Shown here piece by piece: positions 13,632 to 25,376 of a stretch of DNA of 64,000 bases. The DNA is taken from positions 1 through 64,000 of the forward strand of contig CACZFH010000009.1 of the NCBI GenBank assembly GCA_902780395.1, in the 5' to 3' direction. The stretch is from an uncultured Erysipelotrichaceae bacterium (GTDB taxonomy: Bacteria > Bacillota_I > Bacilli_A > RF39 > UBA660). The position numbers were made by a program, and so were the translations under genes. Position 1 is the stretch's first letter; every line of letters starts with the position of its first letter. The notes beneath the pieces are model-generated. The model ran no database searches. It was given only the letters and a program-made list of their open reading frames with translations, and was not told the DNA's origin.

Positions 13632-14543
13632 GTGAATATGGATTTAATAGATGTATATGAAGAAGAAAAGCAATGTGAATATAATGGAGAAGTTTATTCT
13701 GTAAGAGATAATGGTGCTATTATGCGTCATCCTAAAGATAATAATAAACCTAGATCTCTTGATAATACTTGGACGTTTGGAACAATTAATAAACAAAATG
13801 GATATCTAATGATATCATCTGATAGAGTTCATCGTATTGTAGCTACTGCATTTTTAGGAGAGGCACCTTCAAAGGATTATATTGTTGACCATATAGATAC
13901 TAATAGGCAAAATAATAGGCCAAGTAATTTGAGATGGATTACAAAACTTGAAAATATTTTATTAAATCCTATAACATGTAAAAAAATAGAACTATTATGC
14001 GGATGTCCTATTGAAGATGTTCTAAACGACATTTCAATTCTTAGAAATAAATCTTTAACTCCTCAGTTTGAATGGATGAAAACTGTAAGTAAGGAGGAAG
14101 CCCAACATTCATTAGAATCTTGGAAAAAATGGACAGAAAGTAGTTCAACAATTCAAAATGATAAGAGAAAAGAATATGTAAACTATAATAAATTAAACAG
14201 TGAAATGATTTATCCTTTGGAACCAGAAGGAAATCTATCTTTGGAAGACTATTTCAATAGATTAAATATTGGAAAAGAGTTATGCTATAAGTATTATGAC
14301 GGTGAGAGAAATTCATATCAAATAAAAGATTATTATTTAAATAAAGAGACAAATGTTTTATCGGTTGCAACAATAAATGATAGTAGTATGAAAAAATATT
14401 ATCTTACAAGTATTACTTTAAATAATAATTGTTATTGTTATAGTGTAGATAGTTATTTTCAAGAAGAAAGTCTTAATAAATATATGACACTAGCAAAAGG
14501 TGAAGAATGGACAGGTGGAGATGTATTTGATGATTATTGTTAG
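13632..14543 (+). CDS. HNH endonuclease-like protein (NUMOD/HNH_3)
   Basis: Residues 20-60 resemble a NUMOD4-type segment (YSVRDNGAIMRHPKDN) and about 62-105 form an HNH_3 domain: HRIVATAFLG, then VDHIDTNRQNNRPSNLRWIT, with the metal-binding DH and the closing Asn. This is how homing-type HNH nucleases look. The remaining 190 residues are unlike homing nucleases and may be a separate recognition domain. Two starts are possible, GTG at 13632 or ATG at 13638; AGGTGAT suits the latter slightly better. It lies 68 bases ahead of a large composite nuclease. An own promoter (CTATAATAG) precedes it. Confidence 0.8.
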   Translation: MNMDLIDVYEEEKQCEYNGEVYSVRDNGAIMRHPKDNNKPRSLDNTWTFGTINKQNGYLMISSDRVHRIVATAFLGEAPSKDYIVDHIDTNRQNNRPSNLRWITKLENILLNPITCKKIELLCGCPIEDVLNDISILRNKSLTPQFEWMKTVSKEEAQHSLESWKKWTESSSTIQNDKRKEYVNYNKLNSEMIYPLEPEGNLSLEDYFNRLNIGKELCYKYYDGERNSYQIKDYYLNKETNVLSVATINDSSMKKYYLTSITLNNNCYCYSVDSYFQEESLNKYMTLAKGEEWTGGDVFDDYC

Positions 14544-14611
14544 TAATCATTGATTTAAAGTAGGTAGAAACCTACTTTTAATATGTTATAATAAGGCATG
14601 GAGGGAATGCT

Positions 14612-16297
14612 ATGGTAAATATTGATTCAAAAAAATATGTTTTACTTGATGTTGAAACTAATGGTTTATCATCATTACAAAATGATCTTTTATCAATTTC
14701 TTTGTATAGACCAGATGATGGTAAAATATATGATAGATTTTTACCACTTGAGTTAGAAGAAATTGTTTGGCCTTGGATATCAGAAATCAATGGCATAGAT
14801 GATGAAATGTTAATTGATAAATTGCCATTAACTCAGGAAGAATTTGATTCCGTTATTAGTGATTTTGATTTGGAAAATAGAATAATATTACATTATGGAA
14901 ACATTGATGAAAAATTTCTTAAAAATTATTTAAAAAGAAAGAAAATTAATGGATTTGAAAAATTATCATTTTATAATTTTAAACATGATATTATTTCTAA
15001 CAAGTTTTCCGAAGGAAATATAACTAAAGATAATTTATGTAGAATTTATGGTATAGAGAATGTTAATAAAGTACATACCGGTTTAAATGATTGTATTCTG
15101 GAATGGAAATTATTTGAAAAAATGAATGGCAATAAACTAATAGTAATTGGAAATACTGTTTATGAGTTTAATGATGAATATATTATTCCAGTAAGTTATT
15201 TACAAAATTACACTAATTTTAAATATCATATAAATAATTTTCCTAAGATTTCTTATGATATGGAGGAAGTAAAAACAATAAGAATTAGTTCTCCTGAAAT
15301 AAAAAAGTTTGATAATAATATTAGTGGAATAACTATTGAGCATTTAATTAATTCACTGTTGAATGTTGAAGATAAAAATCAAGAAACAATGTTATTTCAA
15401 GCTCAAAATAGAGGAAAATTAAAGAAAATTGGTGAACTTCCTTCAATGATACATACAATTCCAATATCGATGAATACAGATGGAACAATTACAGCAATTA
15501 ATAAAGAAGATAGAAAAACAGTCAATGATATAAATAAAGTAACTGAGATTATAAAAAAAGAAATTAAACCTTTAATAGATTTTATCAAACATGATATTTT
15601 TAATGATGAACTAATAATGTCTCAAGAATTAGTGATAAACAAGGAAGATAATGTTTTAGCAAAATGTGATTTATCCACAGATGATAAAATTCTTGAAATA
15701 AAAGGATTCAATATTGATGTTGAAAAAATGAAGTATCAATTATATTATGAGGCTAACGGAAGAGAAATATATATTTTACAAACATTTTGGAGAACAAATT
15801 TAAAACAAGGATTAAAATTTGTTATATACAAAGTTATTCCTAAAGAATATACACGAAAAATTCCCGATAGAACTAAATCAATTTTGAAATGGAAACAAGC
15901 ATTTGAAAAAAAGATTAATAATAAGAATTTGGAAGTAATTGAATATCAAAACTCAGAATCAGATGTAAAAATGAGATGTAAAATTTGCGGTATGGAGTGG
16001 AAAACATCTTATCGTTCAATTATTAGAAAACCACTTTGTATTAATTGTAATAAAAATCAATTCTTTAAAAATGAAGAACCAAAAAGAGTGTTAACATTAG
16101 AAGAAAAGAATCGTATGAAATTGATTTCGTATCAAGAAAAACTAACAGAAAGATCACATGGAAAATTGTTAGCTATCAATTATCATGGCTCTAGAGAAAA
16201 ATTATCAGTCGGATGTTCTGAGTGTGGAAATGTTTGGAAAATAAGAGCTGATCACCTTCTTGATAGACCTTATTGCCCTAAATGTAGAAAGAAATAA
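14612..16297 (+). CDS. Composite nuclease: DnaQ-like exonuclease, PD-(D/E)XK-like region and two zinc ribbons
   Basis: The N-terminal ~165 residues are a DEDDh exonuclease: LLDVETNGL gives Asp12 and Glu14, an Asp near 95, and HTGLNDC gives His155 and Asp160. In the middle, KCDLSTDDKILEIKGF (Asp353...Glu362-x-Lys364) fits the PD-(D/E)XK core. The end carries two four-Cys ribbons, CKIC..17..CINC (~454-478) and CSEC..CPKC (~537-558), of the WKTSYRS..R..LC type seen in DUF4379-like DNA-binding ribbons. I know no named family with this order. It follows the HNH gene by 68 bases, with a promoter TATAAT at 14587-14592 of its own. Confidence 0.75.
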   Translation: MVNIDSKKYVLLDVETNGLSSLQNDLLSISLYRPDDGKIYDRFLPLELEEIVWPWISEINGIDDEMLIDKLPLTQEEFDSVISDFDLENRIILHYGNIDEKFLKNYLKRKKINGFEKLSFYNFKHDIISNKFSEGNITKDNLCRIYGIENVNKVHTGLNDCILEWKLFEKMNGNKLIVIGNTVYEFNDEYIIPVSYLQNYTNFKYHINNFPKISYDMEEVKTIRISSPEIKKFDNNISGITIEHLINSLLNVEDKNQETMLFQAQNRGKLKKIGELPSMIHTIPISMNTDGTITAINKEDRKTVNDINKVTEIIKKEIKPLIDFIKHDIFNDELIMSQELVINKEDNVLAKCDLSTDDKILEIKGFNIDVEKMKYQLYYEANGREIYILQTFWRTNLKQGLKFVIYKVIPKEYTRKIPDRTKSILKWKQAFEKKINNKNLEVIEYQNSESDVKMRCKICGMEWKTSYRSIIRKPLCINCNKNQFFKNEEPKRVLTLEEKNRMKLISYQEKLTERSHGKLLAINYHGSREKLSVGCSECGNVWKIRADHLLDRPYCPKCRKK

Positions 16298-16570
16298 TAA
16301 ATAGTGTGACCACTGGGCGCAAAGTGTGCCAAGTTGGCGAGAAGTTACTTTTGGACCAAATGTCCAGAAGTTTTATCAAATAAAAAAAGAGAGAGATTTC
16401 TACCAATACAGAAATCTCTCTTTTCCCTTAATATAAACTTCTTACCAATAATTTCACCAATACAAAATAATAAAAAATAGTAAAACTTTATAATATTTTG
16501 AAAACTAACAATTCGTTTTTAGCCTTATTTTATCCAAGAAAGGCAGAATATCCTCATTTTATCAATCGAC
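16298..16570. other. Gene-free region with hairpins and a terminator
   Basis: Just behind the nuclease gene is a less AT-rich patch (16310-16375) with stems TTTGGAC-CAAAT-GTCCAGAA and TGGGCGC...GTGCCA. A strong terminator GAGAGATTTC-TACCAATACA-GAAATCTCTC (16391-16420) with TTTT follows. ACCAATA-ATTTC-ACCAATAC (about 16444-16465) is a direct repeat that may be yet another arm type. Confidence 0.6.
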
Positions 16571-16663
16571 CCCCTGAAGACACTGTCGTGAGACAGTGTC
16601 ACTTTATTTTATAAGGGTTTTAGAAGCTTTGGTTTTTTTCTAGATACCAAGCCAGATACCAAG
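16571..16663. other. Unit junction 3: core, GACACTGTC hairpin and TCTAGATACC arm pair
   Basis: CCCCTGAA, hairpin GACACTGTC-GTGA-GACAGTGTC (16579-16600), TTTATTTTATAAGGG, AAGCTTTG, then TCTAGATACC..CCAGATACC (16639-16663). The hairpin and flanks recur almost unchanged at 22351-22438 and 24691-24770. Confidence 0.7.
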
Positions 16664-20970: not shown

Positions 20971-22167
20971 ATGAAAATAATAAAAAGAAAGTATTTGCAA
21001 GATATAATTGATGTTATGGGAACACTAGATATAAAAGTTATTACTGGTGTTAGGCGTAGTGGAAAATCAGAATTATTACATATGTTTAGTGATTACGTAA
21101 AAAATAATGATGAAAAGTCTAATATCATATATATTGACTTCAATCTTGATGAGTTTGATTATTTAAAAGATTATAAAGAATTAATCAAATATGTTAGTGA
21201 AAGATTTGATTCTAAAAAGAATAATTATATTATGATTGATGAAGTTCAAATGTGTAATGATTTTGAAAAAGCAATTAATAATTTTCATGCCGAGGCTAAA
21301 TATGATATTTATATAACTGGATCTAATGCTTTTCTTTTATCTAGTGATTTAGCAACTTTATTTACTGGAAGAACATATAGTATAGAAGTTTATCCATTTT
21401 CATATAAAGAATTTCTAGAATATTATGAGTTAGACAATACTGATGATAGTTTTGATAGATATGTATTAGAAGGTGGATTTTCAGGTTCTTATTTATACAA
21501 AGAAATAGAAAAGAAATATAATTATATTAGAGATGTTTATAAAACTATGATTGTTAGAGATATTGTTCAAAGAAACAAGATACAAAATACTACTCTACTT
21601 GATAGTATTAGTGATTTCTTAATAGATAATGTATCAAGAATAACTTCATATAGAAGTATTACAGATACTCTTAATACAAATAAGGCTGATACTAATGATA
21701 AGACAGTTGGAGCATATATAAAATATTTATGTGAGGCATTTGCTTTCTATAAGGTAAGAAGATATGATATTCAAGGTAAGAAGTATCTAGCAACACAAGA
21801 TAAGTATTATTTATCTGATCATGCAGTTAAATATGCTATACAAGGTACTAAAAATATGAATTATGGTAATATCTATGAAAATATAGTTGCAATGGAATTA
21901 ATTAGAAGAGGATATGAAGTATATGTTGGTGTCTTATATGAAAAAGAAGTTGATTTTGTCGCTACTAAAAGAAATGAAAAAATCTATATTCAAGTTTCAA
22001 GTGATTTAGGTGATGACTTTGATAGTGATACCTTTAAACGAGAAGTTGATCCATTACTAAAAATAAAAGATGCCTATCCTAAAATGATAATTGCAAGAAC
22101 AAAACATGATGATTATCAATATGAAGGTATTCAAATAGTTGATATAGCTAATTGGTTATCTAGATAA
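20971..22167 (+). CDS. AAA_14/DUF4143 ATPase
   Basis: Single-domain P-loop ATPase followed by DUF4143. Walker A GVRRSGKSELL (~26-36), Walker B NNYIMIDEVQ (~84-93), a sensor region YITGSNAFLLSSDLATLFTG, and the Y-rich PFSYKEFLEYY that marks AAA_14. The C-terminal part (DNVSRITSYRSI...YYLSDHAVKYAIQG...GNIYENIVAMELIRRGYEVYVG...KEVDFVATKRNE) is DUF4143, which has a PD-(D/E)XK-like fold (ENIVAMEL...EVDFVA...IQVS). The family is abundant in gut bacteria and its role is unsettled. 398 aa is full length. Transcription is likely self-controlled through the inverted repeat at its promoter. Confidence 0.9.
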   Translation: MKIIKRKYLQDIIDVMGTLDIKVITGVRRSGKSELLHMFSDYVKNNDEKSNIIYIDFNLDEFDYLKDYKELIKYVSERFDSKKNNYIMIDEVQMCNDFEKAINNFHAEAKYDIYITGSNAFLLSSDLATLFTGRTYSIEVYPFSYKEFLEYYELDNTDDSFDRYVLEGGFSGSYLYKEIEKKYNYIRDVYKTMIVRDIVQRNKIQNTTLLDSISDFLIDNVSRITSYRSITDTLNTNKADTNDKTVGAYIKYLCEAFAFYKVRRYDIQGKKYLATQDKYYLSDHAVKYAIQGTKNMNYGNIYENIVAMELIRRGYEVYVGVLYEKEVDFVATKRNEKIYIQVSSDLGDDFDSDTFKREVDPLLKIKDAYPKMIIARTKHDDYQYEGIQIVDIANWLSR

Positions 22168-22209
22168 TAAAAAAACAACTAGTTATTGAGATATAACTAG
22201 TTTTTGCTT

Positions 22210-22438
22210 TCTAGATACCAAATCCAGATACTAATTGCAAAAAATCATGATATTTTTATAAACTTAAAAAAACTTATAAAAATTAAAAAGGTTATAAAAT
22301 AAGCATTTTATATTTATATGTATTGTTACGGACTGGTTAATTAATTTCCTCCTGAAGACACTGTCGTGAGACAGTGTCACTTTATTTTATAAGGATTCGC
22401 AAAGCTTTGACTTTTTTCTAGATACCATATAGATACCA
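22210..22438. other. Unit junction 4: right arm pair, core hairpin, left arm pair
   Basis: This junction shows the complete order: TCTAGATACC..CCAGATAC (22210-22234), an AT-rich stretch, GTTACGGACTGG (about 22325), CTCCTGAA, hairpin GACACTGTC-GTGA-GACAGTGTC (22357-22378), TTTTATAAGG, AAGCTTTG, and a second arm pair TCTAGATACC..TAGATACC (22417-22438). I read it as the right end of the XRE-ABC unit joined to the left end of the next. Confidence 0.7.
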
Positions 22439-22499
22439 AAAATTCAAAAAATTTGATATTTTTAATTGTTTACTTTAGTTTGTATGCGTTTATGGTATT

Positions 22500-22648
22500 T
22501 TGACAAAGATATAAAAGTATGATATTATGTATACAGATGAGGGAAACTTCATAAAATAAAAAAGGGAACATTCAGTTTTTGCATGTTGAATGTCTACCCA
22601 AATTTCTTTGTTAGACATTTAAGTCATAGACTTAAGTGTCATTTTTTT
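22500..22648 (+). ncRNA. Candidate type I antitoxin RNA 1 (with promoter)
   Basis: TTGACA (22500-22505), 17 bases, TATTAT (22523-22528) is the strongest-looking promoter in the island and has no ORF behind it. A start near 22535 gives an RNA of about 114 bases: a hairpin ACATTCA...TGAATGT (about 22569-22592) and a terminator GACATTTAAGTC..GACTTAAGTGTC with seven T (22614-22648). Its end overlaps the stop codon of the toxin gene on the other strand, and its body is antisense to that gene's 3' untranslated part. The promoter and first 45 bases are almost identical in copies 2 and 3. Confidence 0.75.
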
Positions 22649-22731
22649 ATTACTAAAACCAGTAAGGTTAAGAGTAGTAAAATGAGTGATATGTAGCGAA
22701 GCAACTTTATGTTGTATTCACGTTTTTTCAT
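22639..22731 (-). CDS. Candidate type I toxin peptide 1 (30 aa)
   Basis: A small frame that ordinary gene finding misses. The peptide starts MKKREYNIKLLRYI and continues as an almost pure Leu/Ile/Val helix (SLILLLLTLLVLVI) ending in two Lys: one membrane span with charged ends, the usual form of type I toxins. GAGGAGG lies 9 bases ahead of the ATG. On the minus strand TTGACA, 16 bases, TATACT (within about 22792-22823) gives a ~65-base leader. The message can end at the hairpin near 22569-22592, which on this strand is followed by CCCTTTTTT, so it overlaps the antitoxin RNA along nearly all its length. No match to Fst, TxpA/BsrG or Ldr sequences that I can see. Confidence 0.7.
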   Translation of the reverse strand: MKKREYNIKLLRYISLILLLLTLLVLVIKK

Positions 22732-22834
22732 TCTCTCAAACCTCCTCTCTAATGTTGGATTGGAGGTAGACACTCAACAACTAAATGTTCCTAAGATTAG
22801 TATATCAAATATACGTTCTATGTCAATGTATGTT

Positions 22835-22859
22835 TCTAGATACCAAATCCAGATACTAA
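22835..22859. repeat. Arm-type repeat pair between toxin-antitoxin units 1 and 2
   Basis: TCTAGATACC..CCAGATAC followed by AAAAATTCG and TTTGATAATTATAATTGC, the same continuation as at 22417 and 24749. Units 1 and 2 are thus tandem copies of a roughly 415-bp segment starting with this repeat. Confidence 0.7.
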
Positions 22860-22921
22860 AAATTCGAAAAAAATTTGATAATTATAATTGCTTACTTTAG
22901 TTTGTATGCGTTTATGGTATT

Positions 22922-23075
22922 TTGACAAAGATATAAAAGTATGATATTATGTATACAGATGAGGGAAACTTCATAAAATAAAAAGGGAACACTTAATTTT
23001 CAGAGGTTGAGTGTTACCCAAAAATTTTTGGTTTGCACCTATCTCAATGTTGAGTTAGGTGCTTCTTTTATTTTA
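22922..23075 (+). ncRNA. Candidate type I antitoxin RNA 2 (with promoter)
   Basis: Promoter TTGACA (22922-22927), 17 bases, TATTAT (22945-22950), same as copy 1. RNA start near 22957. Terminator GCACCTATCTCAA-TGT-TGAGTTAGGTGC (23035-23062) with a T-rich tail. The first part is near-identical to copy 1, while the hairpin loops and terminator differ, so the two RNAs may each act only on their own toxin. Confidence 0.75.
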
Positions 23076-23151
23076 GTATTACGAAAAGTAATGCTATAAG
23101 TAAAAGGATGATGAGAACTAAAGAAGAGATTAAAAAATCTTTCTTGCTCAT
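23068..23151 (-). CDS. Candidate type I toxin peptide 2 (27 aa)
   Basis: Starts MSKKDFLISSLVLII and ends LLFVILK: a charged start, about 20 hydrophobic residues and a final Lys. Sequence differs from peptide 1 though the architecture is the same. Ribosome binding site GGAGGTGAT, ATG at 23151. Minus-strand promoter TTGATA, 16 bases, TATAAT (within about 23216-23243). The stop TAA lies in the T-rich tail of the antitoxin terminator, so the two transcripts converge and overlap. Confidence 0.7.
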   Translation of the reverse strand: MSKKDFLISSLVLIILLLIALLFVILK

Positions 23152-23252
23152 TTGCATCACCTCCAATCATAAGTATGATGAAGGTAGCACCCAACTTATT
23201 AAGTATTCCAATGTTTATTATATCAAACATAAATTTTATATCAATATATATT

Positions 23253-23413
23253 TCTAGATACTAAATCCAGATACTAATTGCCAAAAATTAAGATATTTTT
23301 ATAAACTTATAAAAATCGAAATAGTTATAAAATAAGGGTTTTATATTTAGATGCATTGTTACGGACTAGTTCATAAATTGCCCTCAGAAGAGGACACGAA
23401 TCAATGTGTCCTC
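23253..23413. other. Unit junction 5: right arm pair and core hairpin
   Basis: TCTAGATAC..CCAGATAC (23253-23276), AT-rich spacer, GTTACGGACTAG, CCCTCAGAA, hairpin GAGGACAC-GAATCAAT-GTGTCCTC (23390-23413). The right-hand half matches 22210-22355 closely; the hairpin is different. Behind it (23499-23520) TTACATACGA is directly repeated, possibly the left arms of the EamA unit. Confidence 0.6.
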
Positions 23414-23645
23414 ATTTTTGTTGTAAAAAATTACAAGAAAATAAGCAAATCTTACAACTTTTTTGTAAAATCTTCAACTTTGGTATACTTTTTACATACG
23501 AATTACATACGAATTTCTGGGGAAAAAATATAAAAAACGTGATTTTTAGTGGTTAAAAACCTAATAAATACTGACTTAAATGGTTTTGTTCTCTTCACAC
23601 TCAAGGGAGTGAAGTTTATGATATAATAATTATGGAGGGAATAAT

Positions 23646-24566
23646 ATGACTACAGCAGTTTTATTTGCAATTTTTGCATCATTTCTTTGGAGTGTTACAA
23701 ATCATATAGATAAATTTATGATTACAGGAATTGAAGAAAGCAAAAATAGTATAAAAATATTGTTAGTTTTTTCAACTTTTGTAGCTGGTATAGTTTTAAC
23801 TCCTATTTGGTTAATATTAAGCCATTTTACTGTTAGTATTAGTTTTGTTTCCCTGTTTAGTGTATTAAGTGCATCTTTAATTTATATTATAGCAACAGTA
23901 TTTTATTTTAAAGCTATTGAAAAAAATGATGCATCGCTTGTAGTTGTAATGTTTCAAATGATACCTGTATTCAGCTATATTTTAGCCTTGATATTATTCA
24001 AAGAAAATTTAACAATTCGCCAAATAGTAGGATCAATTATAATAATACTTTCTGCCATCATAATTTCTTTTGATTTTAATGAAAAAAATAATAGAAAAAA
24101 ATTTAAGGCATTATTACTTATGATATTATCTTCTTTATGTTATTCAATATATTTCATATTATTTGATATTGGAATAAGAAATAGTGCATATTATTCATGT
24201 GCATTTTGGTATCAAATAGGATTTTTAATTATGGGTATAGTTCTACTTTTATTAAGATCTTTTAGAATACCGTTTGTAAATGTTATTAAGAAAAATGGGA
24301 AAAGATATTTGATACTAAATACTACTAATGAAGTCATTAATTTAATTGCCAATTTATTAGTTAACTATGCAAATTTATTAATTCCAATAGCACTTGTAAA
24401 TGTTTTGAGTGGCTTTCAAGGCGCATTTGCATTCATTCTTGGAATAATAGGAACTTTATTATTACCAAAATACATAAAAGAAGATTTAAGTAAAAGAGTA
24501 GTAATTCAAAAAATAGTGTGCATTATTTTAGGAATAATTGGTCTTATTATTCTAGTTTATAAATAG
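23646..24566 (+). CDS. EamA-family (DMT) transporter
   Basis: Ten hydrophobic segments in two repeated halves of five, as in drug/metabolite transporters. The first half includes FYFKAIEKNDASLVVVMFQMIPVFSY, the family's typical helix 3-4 region, and the second half repeats it (NLLVNYANLLIPIALVNVLSGFQGAFAF). It starts with TTAVLFAIFASFLWSV, normal for EamA, with GGAGGG ahead. 306 aa is full length. Substrate unknown. It is the only gene of its unit (about 23,385-24,693), with its own promoter region around 23,590-23,635 that also holds TTCACACTCAAGGGAGTGAA, a possible operator or arm site. Confidence 0.85.
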   Translation: MTTAVLFAIFASFLWSVTNHIDKFMITGIEESKNSIKILLVFSTFVAGIVLTPIWLILSHFTVSISFVSLFSVLSASLIYIIATVFYFKAIEKNDASLVVVMFQMIPVFSYILALILFKENLTIRQIVGSIIIILSAIIISFDFNEKNNRKKFKALLLMILSSLCYSIYFILFDIGIRNSAYYSCAFWYQIGFLIMGIVLLLLRSFRIPFVNVIKKNGKRYLILNTTNEVINLIANLLVNYANLLIPIALVNVLSGFQGAFAFILGIIGTLLLPKYIKEDLSKRVVIQKIVCIILGIIGLIILVYK

Positions 24567-24603
24567 ATTTTTTACATACGAAAAAACTAAATTCCCAAGT
24601 TGT

Positions 24604-24770
24604 CTCGAGTGTGCTCAAGTGTGAAAATAACGAGTAATATTGGAATTTAAAGAGTTACGAATATCCCATAAAGCCGAAATCCCGGACCCATTGAAGACAC
24701 TGTCGTGAGACAGTGTCATTTTATTTTATTTTAGAAGTTTATGATTTTTCTAGATACCATACAGATACCA
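24604..24770. other. Unit junction 6
   Basis: CTCGAGTGTG-CTCAAGTGTG (24604-24623) is a 10-bp direct repeat, followed by AACGAGTAAT, GAGTTACGAA, CCCATTGAA, hairpin GACACTGTC-GTGA-GACAGTGTC (24696-24717) and TCTAGATACC..CAGATACC (24749-24770). The piece GTCTCGAGTG...AACGAGTAAT recurs in altered form at 27985-28026. Confidence 0.65.
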
Positions 24771-24832
24771 AAAATTCGAAAATATTTGATAATTATAATT
24801 GTTTACTTTAGTTTGTATGCGTTTATAGAATT

Positions 24833-24985
24833 TTGACAAAGTTATATATATATGATATTATGTATACAGATGAAGGAAGCTTCATAAAATAAAAAAGGGA
24901 ACATTCAGTTTTCGCAAGTTGAATGTCTACCCTAAATTGGGTTTTGACACTTAATCAGTGCTGATTAGAGTGTCATTTTTTTATT
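24833..24985 (+). ncRNA. Candidate type I antitoxin RNA 3 (with promoter)
   Basis: TTGACA (24833-24838), 17 bases, TATTAT (24856-24861). RNA start near 24868. Hairpin ACATTCA...TTGAATGT, then terminator GACACTTAATCAG-TG-CTGATTAGAGTGTC with seven T (24946-24982). The promoter is fully kept although the toxin opposite is damaged. Confidence 0.7.
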
Positions 24986-25041
24986 ACTAAAATGAGTGAT
25001 ATGTAACGAAGCAACTTTATGTTGTATTCACGTTTTTTCAA
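24973..25041 (-). pseudogene. Decayed type I toxin 3
   Basis: Same peptide as toxin 1 (KKREYNIKLLRYISLI) but with the start ATG changed to TTG, an in-frame loss of 24 bases that removes eight residues of the membrane helix, GGAGG reduced to GGAGA, and the minus-strand -10 box TATACT changed to TCTACT. Each change should lower toxin output or activity. The antitoxin side is intact. Confidence 0.7.
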
Positions 25042-25144
25042 ATCTCTCAAATCTCCTCTCTATGTTGGATTGGAGGTAGACACTCAACAACTAAATGTTC
25101 CTAAAATTAGTAGATCAAATATATGTTCTATGTCAATATATGTT

Positions 25145-25330
25145 TCTAGATACCAAATCCAGATACTATTTTTAAAAAAATAAGTTTTTTTCTTAAACTA
25201 AAAAACTTATAAATATGAAATAGTTATAAAATAATGGCTTTATATTTATATGTATTGTTAGGATTAGTTAATTAATTAAATTACTCCTGAATGAGTCTTA
25301 TATAAAAGAGGGTACGAAACATAGATTATA
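25145..25330. other. Unit junction 7
   Basis: TCTAGATACC..CCAGATAC (25145-25168), AT-rich spacer with GTTATAAAATAATGG, GTTAGGATTAGTTAATTAATT, then CTCCTGAA near 25285. The hairpin seen at other junctions is not evident here. Next comes the ASCH-NUDIX gene with TATAAT about 40 bases ahead. Confidence 0.55.
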
Positions 25331-25376
25331 TAATTTATATTTGATATAATAATTTAATAAACAAAGAGGTATTGTT

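Follow-up and report, generated by a model that had tools for sequence, protein, structure and literature searches.

The locus described here raises the question of whether two nuclease genes lying side by side work as one system and, if they do not, what the larger of the two proteins does. The window (the whole 64,000-nucleotide stretch of DNA that was analyzed) is part of a 1.8-Mb draft genome (G000:C9; 22-35% GC). Both open reading frames (ORFs) proved to be real and lie where the preliminary description had placed them: an HNH endonuclease gene (303 aa, GTG start) at 13632..14543 on the + strand and, 68 bp further on and on the same strand, a gene at 14612..16297 for a 561-aa protein with DEDDh, PD-(D/E)XK-like, and double zinc-ribbon regions. 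They lie in an accessory region of ABC transporter and HTH_3 regulator genes, with an HTH gene on one side and an HTH-ABC gene on the other; because the congener G763 has matching HTH and HTH-ABC genes with other genes between them, the two nuclease genes occupy a variable slot. The preliminary description had read them as a single unit, and their adjacency on one strand within this slot does favor a two-component defense or gene-drive system.

However, a hairpin followed by a T-rich stretch (14557-14578, + strand, fold z=-2.9) and an extended -10 promoter-like site found by promoter scan (14565-14592, + strand, ~20 bp before the second start codon) lie between the genes and suggest that they are transcribed separately; extended -10 sites are frequent by chance in AT-rich DNA, so this one is weak evidence taken alone. 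Scanning 84,980 species genomes with two exonuclease-derived peptide patterns, we found 58 loci of the family to which the 561-aa protein belongs, a count which is a lower bound because only these two patterns were used. A search of the other loci, whose flanks extended to at most 8 kb and in some cases were truncated at a contig end, turned up no neighboring HNH gene, and a conserved HNH-exonuclease pair was therefore rejected: as far as the data reach, the two genes never occur together elsewhere. HNH relatives also exist without the exonuclease, as the nearest one found, on a Chryseobacterium oryzae plasmid (51% over residues 4-183), has no exonuclease gene beside it. The idea that the two genes make up one two-component system is thus largely refuted, and we regard it as very improbable.

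By its sequence relationships, the product of the HNH gene is an I-HmuI-like nuclease in its own right and an independent neighbor. It carries an I-HmuI-like HNH_3 motif at residues 65-108 (13824..13955, + strand, E=1.4e-17), its residues 7-109 match the homing endonuclease structure 1u3e (I-HmuI, E=1.6e-6), and it matches the PADLOC model 'HEase' (E=2e-13); no intron was found around its gene, an Rfam search of the window returning no match. Unlike I-HmuI-type HNH homing endonucleases, it bears an extra C-terminal domain (residues 193-303; 14208..14540, + strand; ending ...WTGGDVFDDYC), which Pfam does not match and which is found alone or on other plasmid proteins: Rhizobiaceae plasmids encode a counterpart of the last 110 residues (...GGDVFDDYC) as a stand-alone protein of 137 aa, and a 766-aa protein of Rhizobium, whose gene follows a DUF1156 gene, has the same domain as its tail. 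A C-terminal ending GG(D/E)x(I/F)D(D/E)YC or similar is shared among 14208-14540 of the window, L110:3923-4336, and L182:1554-3854.

In the 561-aa protein, the DnaQ-like exonuclease domain that had been proposed is clear. Residues 7-172 (14630..15127, + strand) match the PADLOC DEDDh model (E=8.9e-13) and, in the PDB, DnaQ and Cas2-DEDDh; the fold is nearest to DnaQ, RNase T, and ExoI, the D-x-E, D, and H-x4-D motifs are present, and all five catalytic residues of this predicted 3'-5' exonuclease (D13, E15, D99, H155, and D160) are kept in 44 of 44 aligned family members. The fold and catalytic residues of the N-terminal 170 residues are thus common to the DnaQ-like DEDDh exonucleases (DnaQ, the PolC exonuclease, Cas2-DEDDh, and RNase T), but unlike these the 561-aa protein adds a second nuclease domain and a putative DNA-binding tail and has no polymerase or Cas domain.

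For the second nuclease core proposed in the middle of the protein, the conserved motifs and the predicted topology provide good support, but searches against known nucleases by fold and by profile provide only weak support. Residues 173-415 are conserved and carry a RecB/Cas4-like signature (H244, Q338-E339, D353, E362-x-K364, and Q376), the core itself spanning residues 236-412 (15317..15847, + strand), and the D...(D/E)xK active-site motif (D353, E362-x-K364) is intact in 41 of 44 aligned members. AlphaFold gave a pLDDT of 90 for the whole protein and, for the middle domain alone, a pLDDT of 93 and a pTM of 0.89; the latter model has a helix at 126-145, strands at 164-171, 176-183, and 187-192, a helix at 202-209, and a strand at 213-222 (domain numbering), that is, the alpha-beta-beta-beta-alpha-beta order of the PD-(D/E)XK superfamily. 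Foldseek searches of the PDB with this domain returned nothing significant (best E 0.04); the highest-probability match was the RecE exonuclease (prob 0.60, not significant), and HincII chains occupied much of the top 30, RecE and HincII both being PD-(D/E)XK enzymes. In local mode, hhalign aligned the domain with a Cas4 alignment at E=0.0025 and a probability of only 11.9%, against ~0.1% for unrelated controls, with the D, ExK, and Q in register; nothing was found against AddB. Across 44 relatives, residues 173-415 matched no convincing Pfam family and no Pfam PD-(D/E)XK model. The domain therefore resembles the RecB/Cas4-like nucleases (Cas4, RecE, and AddB) in its D...ExK...Q order, in register with Cas4, and differs from them in being fused to a DEDDh domain and in escaping the Pfam models. 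The presence of a nuclease fold in this region had been set beforehand as a test, and such a fold is what the model predicts; in our judgment, residues 173-415 are likely a PD-(D/E)XK nuclease. One bin, CAMVRG01, holds two members (L085:6488-7993 and L093:3954-5705) in which the PD-(D/E)XK motif is broken and the DEDDh domain is intact.

The two C-terminal ribbons are real as well. Ribbon 1 (residues 437-482; 15920..16057, + strand; C456, C459, C476, and C479) and ribbon 2 (residues 517-561; 16160..16294, + strand; C535, C538, C555, and C558; DUF4379-like, PF14311) are both of the C4 type, CxxC...CxxC, with a DUF4379 match at E=1.3e-5, and both are seen in the AlphaFold model. The double ribbon appears related to the treble-clef/zinc-ribbon tails of phage intron and free-standing homing endonucleases of the VSR or HNH type: it matches phage endonuclease tails, several annotated HNH or intron, in 94 phage records, at modest E-values (best 2e-6). 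It may bind DNA. Unlike the phage homing endonucleases, the family has another catalytic core and no common insertion site, and its core was not found in the viral or plasmid collections.

Most family members end in a double ribbon. In others the tail is an XRE-type HTH (L051 and L053-L055), a single ribbon, or a winged helix, or is missing; in two of the winged-helix cases (L079 and L095), a repeat that on visual inspection resembles the NUMOD/IENR type comes next. Tail types were read from the sequences by eye, with support from HTH_3, HTH_24, and DUF4379 matches. The core tree shows at least 13 switches of tail type and places the XRE-tailed L051 and L053 in the sister clade of the window's own clade; judged from this tree, the C-terminus of the family is exchangeable. 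Purifying selection acts on both nuclease domains (dN/dS 0.04-0.19 in 8 pairs), while dN/dS of the tail ranged from 0.06 to 0.59 (0.59 being the window versus L044) and lay above that of the core in most pairs. Tail swapping together with the faster evolution of the tail suggests that its targets change. Multi-zinc-ribbon proteins with the look of DUF4379 lie within a few kilobases of six members (L045, L046, L063, L073, L084, and L097).

The family is scattered through mostly gut-derived bacterial genomes, mainly of Bacillota with some Actinomycetota (Coriobacteriia and Bifidobacterium), includes a divergent branch with an N-terminal extension of ~150 aa, and is patchy within the window's genus, where it is present in 5 of 39 genomes. 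The domain order had been described as one known from no named system, and indeed no Pfam, NCBIfam, PHROGs, or PADLOC model spans the whole architecture. PADLOC matched no known defense family over most of the protein and returned only the generic DEDDh model and a weak PDC-S48; membership of PDC-S48 was rejected, as its weak matches fall on the DEDDh domain only. In Foldseek searches with the whole protein, matches to the DEDDh domain predominated, joined in the viral library by matches to the ribbon tails. A literature search covering few subscription journals found no description of a protein combining DEDDh, RecB-like, and zinc-ribbon domains. TM0106-type proteins likewise fuse a RecB-like domain with a DEDD-type RNase H-fold domain; their domain order is opposite to that of the 561-aa protein, and they are not known to have a DNA-binding tail.

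A prophage or plasmid gene was rejected, as no relatives of the core were found in viral contigs, phages, or plasmids. Three members (L047, L048, and L049) are 88-94% identical in DNA, with homology that ends ~26-50 bp beyond the gene and flanks that are unrelated; L065 shows much the same gene-only homology at 81%. Homology reaches further in some close groups: in L057 and L058 it also covers ~320 bp upstream, and L053 and L055 match across an entire 17-kb stretch. A single insertion site of the homing type was not seen, close copies lying in different flanks, and the one search for an empty site, around thioredoxin-[gene]-HTH within one Bacilli family, gave no joined match, no relative having kept both flanks.

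Neighbors are not conserved across the loci, and a conserved neighbor of any kind was rejected; the genomes are mostly metagenome bins, so neighborhoods may be broken or mixed, and gene calls in the loci are heuristic. Many members sit among housekeeping genes (named by eye). Defense-type neighbors include the Shango pair SngA/SngB 123 bp downstream in L057, Wadjet JetC/JetD preceding the family gene in L069 and a type II restriction-modification pair following it in L087 (both loci assigned from the sequences), PDC-S11 in L082, PDC-S01 in L063, and a caspase-like gene nearby in L062. In a comparison of same-sized gene sets from the same loci, defense matches within 2 genes were not clearly commoner than among genes at least 4 positions away; since the farther set scored nearly as many, the defense neighborhood is suggestive only. 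In three loci (L082:7397-8344, L086:7584-8531, and L097:3923-4870), an upstream gene of 315 aa overlaps the member by ~50 bp and itself ends in a DEDDh domain.

What, then, does the 561-aa protein do? We tentatively favor a solitary, horizontally moving, DNA-targeted dual nuclease that would act as a single-gene defense against mobile elements. The tail would most likely direct the enzyme to some sequence or structure that characterizes incoming DNA, the PD-(D/E)XK domain would nick, cut, or resect one strand, and the DEDDh domain would degrade the other from 3' ends, so that both strands would be degraded; the exchangeable tail on the conserved two-nuclease core, in this protein a double zinc ribbon, would set the target. 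Because tail swapping and tail evolution suggest changing targets, defense against mobile DNA fits best. Counted against it are the similar scores of near and far genes for defense matches, the many housekeeping neighborhoods, and the middle domain, whose fold matches include none below E 0.04. Of the defense or gene-drive role first put forward for the locus, defense is still plausible, if unproven, and gene drive is less likely because close copies occupy different sites. The broader proposal of a single-gene defense (or selfish) system in which a fixed core is retargeted by tail swaps and the gene itself is the unit of transfer is possible, though we consider it rather unlikely.

Two other readings draw on much the same evidence. 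The protein could be a free-standing selfish gene of the homing type, in which the tail finds a site, the core breaks and resects the DNA there, and repair copies the gene in; the kinship of its tail with phage endonuclease tails, the homology blocks that stop so close to the gene, a tail that in most pairs evolves faster than the core, and the lack of conserved neighbors all agree with this. Homing would nevertheless be expected to leave close copies at one cognate site, whereas L047, L048, and L049 lie in unrelated flanks, the sole empty-site search yielded no joined match, and exonuclease domains are, to our knowledge, not typical of homing enzymes; we consider such a gene quite unlikely, and defense against mobile elements more likely than homing. 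Alternatively, the protein could be an accessory nuclease of host DNA repair, processing ends at breaks in the manner of ExoI or AddAB, with ribbons that would bind single-stranded DNA. A steadier presence than the patchy one within a single genus and a more stable architecture than one with frequent tail swaps would then be expected, and gene-only transfer is unlike a core repair gene; for these reasons a repair role seems unlikely to us, even with a DEDDh fold nearest to DnaQ, RNase T, and ExoI, many chromosomal neighborhoods of housekeeping genes (as named by eye), and purifying selection on both nuclease domains.

No named model covers this family, widespread as it is in genomes of mostly gut origin. 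Because its tails are swapped in nature while the two-nuclease core stays fixed, targeting can be tested directly. Should the family serve in defense, it would be a compact, single-gene addition to the known systems; should it prove homing-like, it would exemplify the spread of a gene alone by an enzyme that both degrades and cuts.

Elsewhere in the window, an interspersed hairpin repeat occurs at 16570-16649, 22348-22427, and 24687-24766 and consists of GACACTGTC-GTGA-GACAGTGTC plus a second hairpin with a T-run. It has no Rfam match, recurs in many genomes of the same genus, and marks the exact point at which the homology of the HTH-ABC module with G793 begins. Longer direct repeats, with units of 145, 168, and 104 nt, are interleaved across 3 kb at 22136-25374.
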